Shown here: positions 32,285 through 37,858 of the stretch, in pieces | How positions within the stretch are numbered: position 1 is the stretch's first letter | How the letters are laid out: the number at the start of each line of letters is the position of its first letter | NCBI GenBank assembly: GCA_024640545.1 | Contig: JAHEEU010000006.1 | Span: 1-38,066 of the forward strand | Reading direction: 5' to 3' | Origin: Geobacteraceae bacterium | Lineage (GTDB): Bacteria > Desulfobacterota > Desulfuromonadia > Desulfuromonadales > BM103 | Length of the DNA: 38,066 bases | Notes under the pieces: generated by a model | Databases searched by the model: none | What the model was told of the DNA's origin: nothing | Seen by the model: only the letters and a program-made list of their open reading frames with translations | Position numbers and translations under genes: made by a program

Positions 32285-32308
32285 GGGGACCGGCCTGGGC
32301 CGGTCCCC
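32285..32308 (-). terminator. Terminator of the octaheme cytochrome gene
   Basis: GGGGACCGGC and GCCGGTCCCC form a 10-bp stem with a four-base loop, 27 bases beyond the cytochrome stop. On the minus strand it is followed by TTGTTATTTT, which suits intrinsic termination. Confidence 0.8.
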
Positions 32309-32334: not shown

Positions 32335-33723
32335 TTACTTGGTGCGGGCGTACTTCGGGTTGTCCATCGGGTCGCCTTTGTAGCCGAGGGCCTGCCACTG
32401 CATGCGGCCGTTGTCGCCGTGGCAGTCGAGGCAGCCGAGGGCGTCTTCCTTGGGCGAAACCATATGGTTGATCCGCCAGTACATTTCGGTCGGCGCAAAG
32501 CCATACTCGCCGCTGTAGGGCAGGCCGCTGGCCTGCATGCCGAGACGTGCCGCCTTGTCCCAGTCGAAGTCACGCCAGTAACCGCCATCACCGAAGACCT
32601 TGGCGGTGATGAAGTACTTGTTCTGCTTGTCGTAGATCTGCTTGCCGGAATGGAGCTTGAATGGGTAGATCCTGGCCTTTTCGTCCTTGATGCTGCCGTT
32701 CGGGTAGGTCAGCATGGTGACTTTGTCCGGGTCGATCTTGTCGCCGCGCTCGTAGGCGCTGGCGCTGCCGTTGTACCAGAGGTACTCGGGGGTTACCATT
32801 TTGCCCCACTTGAAGTGGCCTTTTTTCTTGTCGTAAGCATGCTTGCCGTATTCATCATTCTGTGCCTCGATCTCCTGGCCTGCGGTCGACCAGTCCCAGG
32901 AAAGCTTGGTCGGTACTTCCTTGGCGAAGAAGGGGATGTGGCAGGTCTGGCAGGAGACCGTGGCCGCGTGCTGGTTCAGGCGGCTCTGGGCATGCGGTGC
33001 GGCGTCGTGGCACTTCTCGCAGGAGAAATGTCTGGTGCCGCCCGGGGAGACACCCAGGGAGTTGCCGGGGATCGCGTGCTTCTCGGTGGCATGGCATTCC
33101 TGGCAGGAGAAGTTGTTGCCGTCGGCGTCCATGTGGACATCGATCGCTCTGGTCGGGTATTCAATCGAGGAGTCGAGGTCGCCATGTTTGACGGCGTCGC
33201 CGCCGCCGCCATAGAAATGGCAGGTTCCGCAGTTGAAACGGCTCGGCTTGCCAACGTTCTGGGCGACGTAGAGCAGGTCGACGCGCTTGGACGGGTTGCC
33301 GGCGCCAGTCGGCTCCTTGACGTAGGTGCCGGTGGTGTCGTGGCAGACCAGGCAGTCAACATTGCCGGGGTTGCCGAAATCGAACGAGCTGTCAGTCCAG
33401 CCATAGCCGGCATGGCAGCTGGTGCAGCGCGGTTCGTTGCCGGCGATCGAGGTGCAGAAGTTGTTGATGGCGTTCTTCTTGCCGCGCACGACGGTGCGGT
33501 CGCCGACTTTCTGCTCCAGGGCCCAGGTCCAGTGGGTGGTCTTCATGAAGTCCTCGGCATGTTTCTCGTGGCACTTGAGACACTGGGCGGTCACTTGCGG
33601 GCCGGTTTCCATCGGCCCCTGGAGAAAGTAGGAGTGGTCGTTTTCGACGGCCAGTGCGGCCCCCGGAATCAGGGTTGCCAGGACGATCAGCAGCAGGCTG
33701 GCGGTCCAGATTGACTTTTGCAT
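32335..33723 (-). CDS. Octaheme c-type cytochrome, tetrathionate-reductase (OTR) family
   Basis: 462 residues with signal peptide cleaved after GAALA (residue 25). Eight CxxCH sites begin at 48, 100, 124, 165, 207, 235, 258 and 431. The segment CGTCHFYGGGGDAVKHGDLDSS region matches Shewanella OTR, where a lysine replaces histidine as ligand to the active-site heme; here it should be K179 with D176 nearby. C90 in NNFCTS is the extra non-heme cysteine of the family. OTR reduces tetrathionate, nitrite and hydroxylamine in vitro; the physiological substrate is unsettled. GGAGAAG precedes the ATG. The porin gene upstream ends 128 bases before its start, with a hairpin between. Confidence 0.93.
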   Translation of the reverse strand: MQKSIWTASLLLIVLATLIPGAALAVENDHSYFLQGPMETGPQVTAQCLKCHEKHAEDFMKTTHWTWALEQKVGDRTVVRGKKNAINNFCTSIAGNEPRCTSCHAGYGWTDSSFDFGNPGNVDCLVCHDTTGTYVKEPTGAGNPSKRVDLLYVAQNVGKPSRFNCGTCHFYGGGGDAVKHGDLDSSIEYPTRAIDVHMDADGNNFSCQECHATEKHAIPGNSLGVSPGGTRHFSCEKCHDAAPHAQSRLNQHAATVSCQTCHIPFFAKEVPTKLSWDWSTAGQEIEAQNDEYGKHAYDKKKGHFKWGKMVTPEYLWYNGSASAYERGDKIDPDKVTMLTYPNGSIKDEKARIYPFKLHSGKQIYDKQNKYFITAKVFGDGGYWRDFDWDKAARLGMQASGLPYSGEYGFAPTEMYWRINHMVSPKEDALGCLDCHGDNGRMQWQALGYKGDPMDNPKYARTK

Positions 33724-33816
33724 GGAGCTTCTCCTTCAACGGTTCAATGGTGTTAGTGATGCTTATGCTGAGTTCCAGCATATATATGAATAAATTGATT
33801 AAATGAGTCGAATAAT

Positions 33817-33840
33817 CGGGGAGAGGCGCACCTCTCCCCG
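33817..33840 (-). terminator. Hairpin between porin and octaheme cytochrome genes
   Basis: CGGGGAGAGG and CCTCTCCCCG form a perfect 10-bp stem with a four-base loop, 10 bases beyond the porin stop. The minus strand continues ATTATTCGACTCATTT, so the T-tract is interrupted. It may be a partial terminator that lowers expression of the octaheme gene relative to the porin, or an RNA-stability end. Confidence 0.7.
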
Positions 33841-33850
33841 GGATCTGCAA

Positions 33851-35686
33851 TTAAAACTTAACCGTCAGAGACGCATTCAGGTCGTATGCCGTGTCGATGA
33901 CGGGCATGAGGGAATAGGCTTTGCCATCCTTGACGTCGTCGACCTTCTGCGGTTTGCCCACCGGCGTGCCGCTGTTGGTGTAGACGAAGTCGTAGTAGAG
34001 GCCGCCGACCTTGATGAACATGTTCGGGTTGATATCGAAGATGTAATAGGCTTCGCCGACATGGCCGCGGGTGGCCAGCTTGCTGCCGAGCGCGTCATCC
34101 TGCCCTTGAGTGAACGGGGACCAGTACTTCGAACCGTAGTTGTACTCGAGGCCGAGCTTGCCGTACGGAGCCGGTACCTGCACGCCGGCGTAGAACCCGT
34201 AACCGTTGCGCACCTTGTCTTCGGTGGCGTTGACCGGAACCATCATGACTTCGGTGCCGTCAGCAGAGAGCTGGGCCTCGAACACGGCGTCCGTACCCAT
34301 GCCGCCGAACATGCCGGCATTGCCGTTGGGACGCAGCTGGGTCCAGCCGCCGGAAGTGAACCACTTGATGCCGTTCTCTTCCTCGCGGGAGAAGACGATG
34401 CCGCCGAGGTTGATGTCACCGATGGTGGTGCTCGGCTGAACGCGGGTTACGAAGTTGAAGTTGGGAAACTTCTGCATGTCTTTGAACAAGGTCGGAGCGA
34501 AGAGTTCGCCGTATTGAGTCGGGAAGGCGATGGTTCCCTTGAAGCCATCATTGATGTCCTGTGCCCTAAAGATGGTCGTCTGCAGGAAGTTGGTCCCGTC
34601 GTTGAACAGGTCGAAGTTGAAGCCGGCGAAGTGAGTGTCCTTCGTCGTGATATCGTTGAACATCTCACCGTTGCCCCACTCGGACTCGAAACCCTGGCCG
34701 TAGCAGAAGCGGGCGATCATCCCTTCGATGCCGGTCGCTTCGCTGAGGCTGTAGCCGACCGTGATGCCGTCGAAGTTGAGGTTCATGACGTTGCCGGTCG
34801 GGGTGCCGCCGCGCAGTTCGTTCTCGCGGATCTCGGTGGGCGGTCCGTAGGTCGAGGGGCGCCGGCCGATCGAGAGATAAACGCCACTGTCGGCGATGTT
34901 GCTCCAGTCCATGTAAGCCCGGTCAACATGCAGCAAGTCGCTTGAGGTGTTGCCGGAGCTGGTGCCGTCCATGGAGAAGCTCCTCCAGGAATCGAACACC
35001 TGCGCATTGGTGGAATCACCCCAGTTCTTGTACATGGCCAGGCGGCCGGCGAACTTGACGTTGTCCCAGACCTTGGCTTTCATGTTCAGCCGCAGGCGGG
35101 AGTCGTACATGACGTCGTTGTTGATATCGTATGTGTCGAGCTTGGCCATTGGGTATATGCCAACGCCTGGGGCGTTGCCATTGAGCATGTAATCGGCCAT
35201 GCTGTTCATCAATTGCTGGAACAGCTCCGGGTTGCTCTCGGCAAGGTTGACAAACATGTTGTCGAGCGCGGTGCCCCCGGAGTTCGTCGGGTCAAATCTA
35301 AGGCCGAGGGGATTGTTAGGGTCGGAATCAGGGACAAACACATTGATGTCTCCCAGGGGAGCCCCTGAGCCTGGAGGCATCATAACTGACATGCCGACCT
35401 TGTCGAAGAAGTCGGTGTAATTCACCTCGATGCCCGGATTGAACGTCACATCGTTGTAATGCAGGCTGTGCGCCCTGGCGCGCAGGTCGCCGCTGAGCTC
35501 GATCCGGTCCAGAGTCGAATGCCGCTCGGTGTCGTCAAGCCGGTCCGAGAGCTCTTCGAGCTCGCCGCTCAGCGCCTCGATCTGCTTCTGCAGCTCCGAG
35601 ATCATGGCGTCCTCCTGGCTTGCCGCGAAGGTGGTCATCGGCAGGGCCAGCAGCACCGCCATGACCAGGAAAACAAGTTTCTTCAT
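33851..35686 (-). CDS. DUF3373-type outer-membrane porin of a cytochrome cluster
   Basis: 611 residues from the ATG 35684-35686, with AGGAGG eight bases upstream. The signal peptide ends near TTFAA, followed by a coiled-coil of about 35 residues (ISELQKQIEALSGELEELSD), as in trimeric or wall-tethered porins. The rest is a predicted beta-barrel with alternating aromatic strands and the terminal VKF, the phenylalanine recognised by BAM. The pattern resembles the DUF3373 family found with multiheme cytochromes in Desulfuromonadia. It lies between a monoheme and an octaheme cytochrome. A role in passing substrate or electrons across the outer membrane is inference. Confidence 0.85.
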   Translation of the reverse strand: MKKLVFLVMAVLLALPMTTFAASQEDAMISELQKQIEALSGELEELSDRLDDTERHSTLDRIELSGDLRARAHSLHYNDVTFNPGIEVNYTDFFDKVGMSVMMPPGSGAPLGDINVFVPDSDPNNPLGLRFDPTNSGGTALDNMFVNLAESNPELFQQLMNSMADYMLNGNAPGVGIYPMAKLDTYDINNDVMYDSRLRLNMKAKVWDNVKFAGRLAMYKNWGDSTNAQVFDSWRSFSMDGTSSGNTSSDLLHVDRAYMDWSNIADSGVYLSIGRRPSTYGPPTEIRENELRGGTPTGNVMNLNFDGITVGYSLSEATGIEGMIARFCYGQGFESEWGNGEMFNDITTKDTHFAGFNFDLFNDGTNFLQTTIFRAQDINDGFKGTIAFPTQYGELFAPTLFKDMQKFPNFNFVTRVQPSTTIGDINLGGIVFSREEENGIKWFTSGGWTQLRPNGNAGMFGGMGTDAVFEAQLSADGTEVMMVPVNATEDKVRNGYGFYAGVQVPAPYGKLGLEYNYGSKYWSPFTQGQDDALGSKLATRGHVGEAYYIFDINPNMFIKVGGLYYDFVYTNSGTPVGKPQKVDDVKDGKAYSLMPVIDTAYDLNASLTVKF

Positions 35687-35788
35687 GTTACGCCTCCTCA
35701 TTGAATGGTGAAGATGTTATCGGCCGGGGGCCCCGCTAGCAGTGAGCCGGCGGGGTGGCCGCAGCCGGTGTCCCTGCATAGCAACAGA

Positions 35789-36109
35789 TCAACCGCAGGT
35801 CTGGGGCTGCGGAGAGTCTGCTGCGTGGTCGAAGAGGAACTGCTGGATATCTTTCAGGTCCTGGTCGGACAGGTCCTTCCACCCCTCTTCGTTGTGTTTT
35901 TTCTTGTCGAAAACCCGGTCCCACTGAGCCTGGGTTTTGGTCATCGGTGTGACTTCACCGCCGGCGCCGCCGCTGGAATGACAGGTCTTGCAGGTCTTCT
36001 TGAAGAGGTGCTTGCCTTTGCGCGGGTTGCCGCCTTCGGCGGCCAGGGCCGATGTGGCGATGAAAGCCGCCAGGGTGATAAAGAGTGCCGGTTTGATGAG
36101 CTTTTTCAT
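35789..36109 (-). CDS. Small periplasmic monoheme cytochrome c
   Basis: 106 residues with a Sec signal cleaved after ATSALA (residue 23). The single heme site is CKTCH at 40-44, and M56 in TPMTK is the likely sixth ligand, giving a class I-like cytochrome; DLKDIQQFLFDHA is the usual C-terminal helix. GGAGG lies 10 bases before the ATG. It is the first gene of the cytochrome-porin-octaheme run and probably shuttles electrons in the periplasm. The gap to the porin contains a GC-rich imperfect hairpin near 35731-35755 but no T-tract. Confidence 0.93.
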   Translation of the reverse strand: MKKLIKPALFITLAAFIATSALAAEGGNPRKGKHLFKKTCKTCHSSGGAGGEVTPMTKTQAQWDRVFDKKKHNEEGWKDLSDQDLKDIQQFLFDHAADSPQPQTCG

Positions 36110-36188: not shown

Positions 36189-36258
36189 ACTTAAATATTG
36201 AAAATCGTATATCTTGTTTTCACAATCTATGCCAATTCATATACATGAATATTTAAGT
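36189..36258. promoter_or_regulatory. Inverted repeats in the cytochrome-cluster promoter region
   Basis: ACTTAAATATT (36189-36199) and its exact complement (36248-36258) are 48 bases apart. Overlapping the right arm is a compact palindrome, ATTCAT-ATAC-ATGAAT (36235-36250), of operator form. Both lie 80-150 bases before the monoheme cytochrome start on the minus strand. No known regulator consensus fits (it is not TTGAT-N4-ATCAA). Confidence 0.4.
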
Positions 36259-36682: not shown

Positions 36683-37180
36683 CTACTCGCGCACATAGGT
36701 ATCAATGTCGGTTTCGTGCACCATGCCCATCATGCGCGCATATTCGGATTCGATGATCTGGTAATGATGGTCGGTCGAGGTGGCGTTCTGCTCGAAAACC
36801 TTGCGGACTTCGGGGTTGTCGATTTTTGCCGCCAGGGTGCGCAGGTGTTCGGCCAGGTTCTTTTCCTTGGCCATGGCCAGTTCCATGGCCTTGCGCTCGT
36901 TGAAATCTTCGGATTTGACCTGATTCAGTTCGGTCATCCAGTCCGAGCCCTGGTCGGCTCCGCTGCTCAGGAACTCCTGCAGGTCGGCGATGTCATCGCC
37001 CGGGTAGACATTGTAAAACCACTCTGCATGTTCGCGCTCTTCCCGTGCCAGCAGCTGGAACACCTTCTTGGCCTCGGCATTCTTCATCATCTCGGCGCCG
37101 CGCTGATAGAAGTCCATGGCGTTCTTCTCGGTCTGAATGGCACGACGAACAGCGTCCTTCAATTCAATGGTGTCAAACAT
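36683..37180 (-). CDS. Ferritin-like (rubrerythrin-type) diiron protein, paralogue 2
   Basis: 165 residues from the ATG 37178-37180, with AGGAGG six bases upstream. The first half has QTEKNAMDFY (E18) and LAREEREHAE (E47/E48, H51). The second half has DFNERKAMELAMAKEKN and NATSTDHHYQIIESEY, the same modified second site as paralogue 1 at 187-651. A C-terminal tail of about 12 residues (HETDIDTYVRE) is unique to this copy. It lacks rubredoxin. It sits next to ferritin, supporting a role in iron storage or oxidative protection, though the reaction is not known. Confidence 0.87.
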   Translation of the reverse strand: MFDTIELKDAVRRAIQTEKNAMDFYQRGAEMMKNAEAKKVFQLLAREEREHAEWFYNVYPGDDIADLQEFLSSGADQGSDWMTELNQVKSEDFNERKAMELAMAKEKNLAEHLRTLAAKIDNPEVRKVFEQNATSTDHHYQIIESEYARMMGMVHETDIDTYVRE

Positions 37181-37226
37181 GTAAATCCTCCTCAGCATAG
37201 TGATATATCTGATTCAAAGACGGGGA

Positions 37227-37345: not shown

Positions 37346-37858
37346 TCAGGCGACTGCGGCAGGTGGTACGAAGGTCCGCTGGGCAAGCTCCTCGTCGAGA
37401 CGCAGCAGGCCGTTGCCGTCGTCGCCAATGCGCTGCAGTTTTTTCACGATCAGGCCGAAACTGGCTTCTTCTTCAACCTGCTCGGTGACAAACCACTGCA
37501 GGAAGATCTGGGCGGCGTGGTTGTTGTCCTTGCGCGCCAGGTCCATGAGCTTGTTGATGCTGTCGGTGACAAAGTTCTCGTGCTTGAGTGAATAGACAAA
37601 GCAGTCGAGCGGCGAAGCATAGTCATTCTGGGGAGCGTCGATCGCACGCAGGTCGGTGCGACCATTGGCTTCACAGATGAAGTTGAAGAACTTTTCACCG
37701 TGGGTCAACTCCTCCAGCGCCTGCACGCGCATCCAGTTGGCGATACCCGGGAGATCCTCTGCCTGAAAATAGCCGGCCATGGCCAGGTAGAGGTAGGCGG
37801 AGAGGAATTCGTTTTTCATCTGCTCGTTCATCGCATCGAGCAATTTCTTGCTGAACAT
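37346..37858 (-). CDS. ftnA: Bacterial non-heme ferritin
   Basis: 170 residues, standard for FtnA. The ferroxidase site is complete: NEFLSAYLYLAM (first Glu), ALEELTHGEKFF with the ExxH pair, and FVTEQVEEEASFG in the fourth helix. Twenty-four subunits form a shell that oxidises and stores iron in the cytoplasm. AAGGAGG lies eight bases before the ATG. An extended -10 promoter lies at 37911-37916. With the two ferritin-like paralogues it makes three iron-type four-helix proteins in this window. Confidence 0.95.
   Translation of the reverse strand: MFSKKLLDAMNEQMKNEFLSAYLYLAMAGYFQAEDLPGIANWMRVQALEELTHGEKFFNFICEANGRTDLRAIDAPQNDYASPLDCFVYSLKHENFVTDSINKLMDLARKDNNHAAQIFLQWFVTEQVEEEASFGLIVKKLQRIGDDGNGLLRLDEELAQRTFVPPAAVA

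Follow-up and report, generated by a model that had tools for sequence, protein, structure and literature searches.

A conserved cytochrome–porin–octahaem reductase gene unit in a Geobacteraceae bacterium as a proposed cassette for anaerobic respiration of sulfur anions

Described relatives and gene order of the locus

The gene cluster described here lies in a 38,066-nucleotide stretch of DNA from a Geobacteraceae bacterium (assembly GCA_024640545.1, contig JAHEEU010000006.1; hereafter the window, meaning the stretch at its full length) and encodes a monohaem c-type cytochrome, an outer-membrane porin of the DUF3373 family and an octahaem tetrathionate reductase (OTR). Its closest described counterpart is in Shewanella oneidensis, where the monohaem cytochrome SO4142 and the OTR SO4144 (PDB 1SP3), known here by their published names, fit the same locus and rose jointly in one transcriptome (PMC5955497). 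The Shewanella loci examined have their genes in the same order as the window, although one of them (L047) differs in having ABC/HlyD-type export genes downstream. Enzymes of the kind encoded by PsrABC/PhsABC operons fill the OTR position after the same cytochrome–porin pair in 21 distinct loci; unlike OTR, to which they bear no sequence relationship, they combine a molybdopterin protein and a membrane subunit of the NrfD type. The Geobacter Ext cluster extHIJKLMNOPQS, which includes a rhodanese, the porin ExtI and the selenocysteine cytochrome ExtKL and has been linked to the reduction of selenite and tellurite (PMC5877670), likewise places a solute-type porin beside multihaem cytochromes. 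Campylobacter Omp50 is a distant sequence relative of the window porin, and OmpM1/OprB/Omp32-type porins resemble it in fold.

In the window, as the initial annotation had described, the three genes are consecutive on the minus strand in the order cytochrome, porin, OTR by open reading frame (ORF) analysis, and a clear ribosome-binding site precedes each start codon:

35789..36109, minus strand: secreted monohaem c-type cytochrome, 106 amino acids (PF13442/PF00034, one CXXCH)
33851..35686, minus strand: DUF3373 outer-membrane porin, 611 amino acids, helical N-terminal segment followed by a beta-barrel (PF11853, AlphaFold model, ribosome-binding site)
32335..33723, minus strand: OTR, 462 amino acids (TIGR04315, 1sp3, eight CXXCH)

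Gene order, conservation, reductase exchange, a shared promoter-like element, residue conservation and the predicted barrel type lead us to favour, with moderate confidence, the view that the three genes form a periplasmic anaerobic-respiration cassette composed of a substrate porin, a dedicated cytochrome and an OTR that would reduce a probable sulfur–sulfur anion. The genes stay linked in two distant bacterial groups, probably to admit and respire a soluble sulfur compound.

Conservation of the cytochrome–porin pair and exchange of the reductase

The initial annotation had proposed a neighbourhood survey of OTR and DUF3373, regarding a conserved porin partner as informative and the lack of any conserved association in other genomes as evidence against a module. 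The association proved to be strongly conserved in both groups surveyed. In Shewanella, 60 genomes of the genus that includes L047 (Shewanella aquimarina) were sampled, with OTR counted above its cut-off; the same 42 hold porin, OTR and cytochrome, and the other 18 hold none of them. By their coordinates in the 42 genomes, the cytochrome, porin and OTR genes are direct neighbours in that order. One gene is damaged in each of three of these genomes, by a stop in the porin in one, a split OTR in another and a stop in the cytochrome in the third. Because all Shewanella genomes with any of the genes (42/60) carry the three together, their adjacency is far beyond chance. Identity to the two Shewanella versions tested is about 65% for the window OTR and 56–59% for the cytochrome and the porin.

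A wider survey of porins, based on 10-kb neighbourhoods and genome stretches, classified 90 distinct sequences, 15 of them from Shewanella. The gene directly after the porin encodes OTR in 47 cases and a PsrA/PhsA-like molybdopterin enzyme in 21, and eight porins have the cytochrome with neither enzyme next door; the remaining loci are contig ends or cytochrome-less porins. The cytochrome lies directly upstream of 73 distinct porins. The 11 cytochrome-less porins comprise a separate DUF3373 subfamily from one Desulfuromonadales family (L145, L162, L163, L180–L185) and two diverged long-branch sequences.

The enzyme that replaces OTR is accompanied by 4Fe-4S and NrfD subunits, and its closest PDB entry is Thermus 2vpw. 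It is most similar to PhsA (E ~1e-166), and because its scores of 535–556 bits fall below the PhsA equivalog cut-off of 694, it is named here only PsrA/PhsA-like. Across the porin tree, the OTR/Psr label switches nine times or more. In Desulfuromonadales, cytochrome and porin thus form a fixed pair, and the reductase is exchangeable. The initial idea, in which a small cytochrome and a substrate porin serve a periplasmic reductase, is supported but incomplete, in that only the cytochrome and the porin are constant. On the same porin tree, Shewanella porins form one clade among those of Desulfuromonadales, as Shewanella OTRs do on the OTR tree (both trees from quick searches, with support from the Shimodaira–Hasegawa-like approximate likelihood ratio test, SH-aLRT, only), which suggests that the module moved as a whole by transfer. 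In L055 (S. fodinae), a related molybdopterin gene lies on the opposite strand beside cytochrome–porin–OTR.

Frequent reductase exchange and the eight pairs with neither enzyme would also fit a function belonging to the cytochrome–porin pair itself, such as thiol-haem redox sensing or general sulfur-anion uptake, to which the reductase is loosely linked; family cytochromes found away from any DUF3373 gene point the same way. The all-or-none presence of three genes across the 60 Shewanella genomes argues against such a loose link, and this explanation is considered distinctly unlikely.

Features of the three proteins and the proposed route of the substrate

The cytochrome has a signal peptide ending in ALA and a single CXXCH at residues 40–44, and matches PF13442 (E 7.6e-10) as well as PF00034. 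Its earlier description as a secreted class I cytochrome is borne out by secretion, by the N-terminal CXXCH and by the Pfam class I-type domain, but not by a conserved distal Met. No candidate distal ligand is complete among 91 close homologues (M56 in 44, His72 in 78 and His95 in 83). The protein ends in ...DHAADSPQPQTCG, and a C-terminal Thr-Cys-Gly is found in 91/91 homologues, seven of which have an extra Gln. Cys105, adjoining the C-terminus, is the sole Cys besides the two haem-binding ones that is invariant (91/91), and 88 of the homologues contain only these three Cys residues. An invariant near-terminal Cys, combined with Met and His candidates none of which is invariant, marks the window cytochrome as class I-like but atypical of class I carriers.

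The AlphaFold model of the cytochrome is poor (predicted local distance difference test, pLDDT, 60), and the tail (residues 99–106) lies within its low-confidence part. Cys105 could be either a haem ligand or a reactive thiol, and it probably ligates haem or contacts a sulfur substrate or product. In the sulfur carriers DsrC and SoxY, which contain no haem, a functional Cys stands at or next to the C-terminus; the resemblance to the window cytochrome concerns the terminal Cys only, and no homology is claimed. A tentative extension is that the cytochrome acts as a haem-thiol carrier, Cys105 binding either porin-imported sulfur chains or its own haem, and passes chains and electrons to the reductase encoded at the third position; if so, it would be a periplasmic sulfur carrier based on a c-type cytochrome.

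Five loci (L033, L036, L037, L039, L045) have a second, diverged cytochrome copy, ending TCGQ, between the first copy and the porin. Distant relatives of the cytochrome (L205, L206, L207, L210), several still with a Cys-Gly end, lie beside a 292-residue protein with one haem motif, which in L205, the only one tested, is Tll0287-like with a HAMP domain; this neighbourhood suggests a sensing role for these relatives.

The porin ORF spans 33851–35701 (616 codons), and its start is placed at the internal ATG at 35686, giving 611 residues, because the strong ribosome-binding site gaggaggcgtaac precedes that ATG. The protein matches PF11853 (DUF3373) with E 2.6e-136 and 455 bits, against a gathering threshold of 26.1. 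Its AlphaFold model, of moderate confidence (mean pLDDT 65), has N-terminal helices followed by a clear beta-barrel of roughly 16–18 predicted strands by a count by eye. Structural alignment matches the barrel to OmpM1, OprB, chitoporin, Omp32, PorB and OprO/P (Z 19–21.6), and the sequence profile matches Campylobacter Omp50 (10aw, E 1.6e-25). MtrB, for which 28 strands are predicted (PMC5877670), is absent among the fold matches, an absence that by itself excludes nothing. A text search of the literature for DUF3373 returned only a pore-family catalogue and a phenotype-prediction paper, and a prior account of the cluster may still exist.

The barrel type bears on the alternative of a porin–cytochrome electron conduit, which the initial annotation raised; the pair would then be an extracellular conduit of the MtrAB or OmbB-OmaB-OmcB kind, to which OTR contributes the multihaem part. 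The porin adjoins c-type cytochromes, as a conduit would, and belongs to a known metal-reducing lineage. Because the predicted barrel matches small-solute channels and MtrB has 28 predicted strands, a substrate channel is favoured instead. Moreover, OTR is a catalytic octahaem protein with conserved active-site residues, and the window ORFs include neither a surface lipoprotein cytochrome nor a further multihaem protein in the cluster. A conduit is thus highly improbable.

The window OTR scores 621.5 bits with TIGR04315 (curated cut-off, 375), covering profile positions 2–440 of 440, and its only PDB match is 1sp3 (E 6.6e-213). It has the eight CXXCH motifs and the non-motif Lys ligand expected of the family, and is the single OTR in the source genome. 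C90, D176 and K179 align with C64, D150 and K153 of 1SP3, among which we take C64 and D150 to be active-site residues and Lys153 the haem ligand. C90 and K179 are invariant in 48/48 porin-linked OTRs, and K179 is kept throughout the aligned OTRs. The haem-ligating Lys of S. oneidensis OTR comes from outside the CXXCH motif (PMC12285233).

Eight OTR relatives outside the module, in other Desulfuromonadales (L152–L158 and L159), have an in-frame UGA codon at the C90 position. Downstream DNA was folded for seven of the eight; six share a near-perfect GCAACGAGTCTCGTTGC hairpin resembling a selenocysteine insertion sequence (SECIS); the remaining one forms another stem. These proteins are probable selenocysteine OTRs. 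A catalytic role for a redox-active thiol or selenol would agree with the UGA codons at the C90 position and the SECIS-like hairpins. The OTR form in L152–L157 has additional N-terminal haem motifs, 13 in total. Single in-frame TGAs are frequent in OTR genes of the phylum: a scan of 395 genomes returned about 30 full-length OTR matches from other families with a single in-frame TGA anywhere in the gene, and a 2026 review lists the OTR family as a GenBank-annotated selenoprotein without a motif (PMC13188914). In Chloroflexota, Neomarinimicrobiota and others (L098, L099, L101, L102, L105, L107, L110), the gene after OTR encodes a long protein carrying about seven haem motifs. The L098 version is fused with a cytochrome b561 domain, and genes for YeeE/YedE-type sulfur transport and for rhodanese come next, which gives OTR another sulfur context.

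In the proposed route, the DUF3373 porin would serve as a diffusion channel through which a small soluble acceptor crosses the outer membrane. This acceptor would most probably be a sulfur–sulfur anion (tetrathionate, another polythionate, thiosulfate or polysulfide), which OTR would reduce in the periplasm at haem 2, the haem ligated by K179, near the conserved thiol C90. The small cytochrome would be the dedicated soluble partner whose haem relays electrons; we infer this direction of electron flow, like the substrate itself. Sulfur anions fit best because the exchanged enzyme is of the polysulfide/thiosulfate type and selenocysteine probably replaces the active-site Cys in certain relatives; both exchanges, Cys for selenocysteine and OTR for Psr/Phs, would favour sulfur–sulfur chemistry. 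The range initially considered (tetrathionate, another oxyanion or an N-oxide) thus appears narrower, with the evidence leaning toward a sulfur anion.

The same architecture could instead serve nitrite, hydroxylamine or nitric oxide (NO) as physiological substrate, in ammonification or in defence against nitrosative stress. Purified S. oneidensis OTR is active on nitrite and hydroxylamine (cited in PMC4484225; PMC4335978), and its Lys-ligated active haem is like that of NrfA (PMC12285233). NrfA is, however, already encoded in the source genome, so OTR would be dispensable for nitrite reduction, and the enzyme that alternates with OTR in the cassette is PsrA/PhsA-like rather than NrfA. Four of five molybdopterin matches are typed as formate dehydrogenase or NuoG and none as nitrate reductase (the fifth, L214, is untyped, and the assembly is 88% complete). 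Nor is it obvious what nitrite reduction would gain from exchanging Cys and selenocysteine at this active site. A nitrogen substrate is accordingly judged unlikely.

Several points weigh against respiration of a sulfur anion by such a cassette. Tetrathionate is not the only substrate of purified Shewanella OTR, which also acts on nitrite and hydroxylamine, and the physiological one is still treated as open (PMC4484225; PMC4335978). The tetrahaem STC of Shewanella binds OTR, in tested pairs that excluded the monohaem cytochrome (PMC4484225). Quinol-linked Psr enzymes have no obvious need of a soluble cytochrome, and the substrate of the PsrA/PhsA-like enzyme is itself inferred because of its score under the PhsA cut-off. 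The porin model is only moderately confident, the whole porin is acidic (net charge about −30), and eight of the 90 porins have the cytochrome with neither enzyme beside it.

Joint gain and loss of porin and cytochrome with OTR in Shewanella, and their sharing with a polysulfide/thiosulfate-type reductase elsewhere, give a concrete substrate hypothesis for OTR that is testable in S. oneidensis; it would also offer a possible role for part of the DUF3373 porin family and for the near-terminal-Cys type of cytochrome. New here are the Thr-Cys-Gly end of the cytochrome, universal among the 91 close homologues, and a promoter-like element that occurs once per genome, before OTR and Psr versions of the module alike.

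Unit boundaries and the promoter-like element

Further features on the minus strand are as follows:

36658–36627 (approximate), minus strand: GC hairpin with T-run between the rubrerythrin gene and the cytochrome unit, read by eye
36209..36235, minus strand: promoter-like element TTGGCATAGATTGTGAAAACAAGATAT, about 100 bp ahead of the cytochrome start
33817..33840, minus strand: GC-rich hairpin without T-run between the porin and OTR genes, by direct sequence reading
32285..32308, minus strand: intrinsic-terminator-like hairpin 3' of OTR, with a 10-bp stem (9 GC pairs) and the tail TTGTTATTTT

Cytochrome, porin and OTR form one unit bounded by two terminator-like hairpins, and the hairpin between porin and OTR is possibly an element of mRNA stability or processing. 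Upstream of the unit, on the same strand, are rubrerythrin-like and ferritin genes (36683–37198 and 37346–37858), which were considered as members and excluded because a terminator-like hairpin separates them from it; similar upstream genes of 171 amino acids are present in some relatives only.

The promoter-like element follows the pattern TTGGCAYANATNNTGAA-N6-8-ATAT, with a spacer of 6 in the window. Among the 22 family genomes, 10 have the strict pattern, each at a single site beside the module cytochrome. Of 65 non-Shewanella loci, 28 have a looser pattern ahead of the cytochrome, against 0.26 in shuffles, a figure that overstates the independence of the matches because the loci are related by descent, and 0 in the reverse complement. 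As the looser pattern is present with OTR and Psr partners alike, the matches indicate that the element tracks the cytochrome rather than the enzyme type. A sigma-54 site was considered for the element and fits it in part: the −24 half agrees, but the −12 half has TGA rather than the expected GC. Two Psr-type loci have a gene for a PAS/sigma-54 activator upstream.

Shewanella upstream regions are without the conserved element. In place of this TTGGCA element, repeated ATTAGATTTTTATCAAT-like words, possibly sites for a different regulator, lie upstream of the cytochrome in L046–L063.

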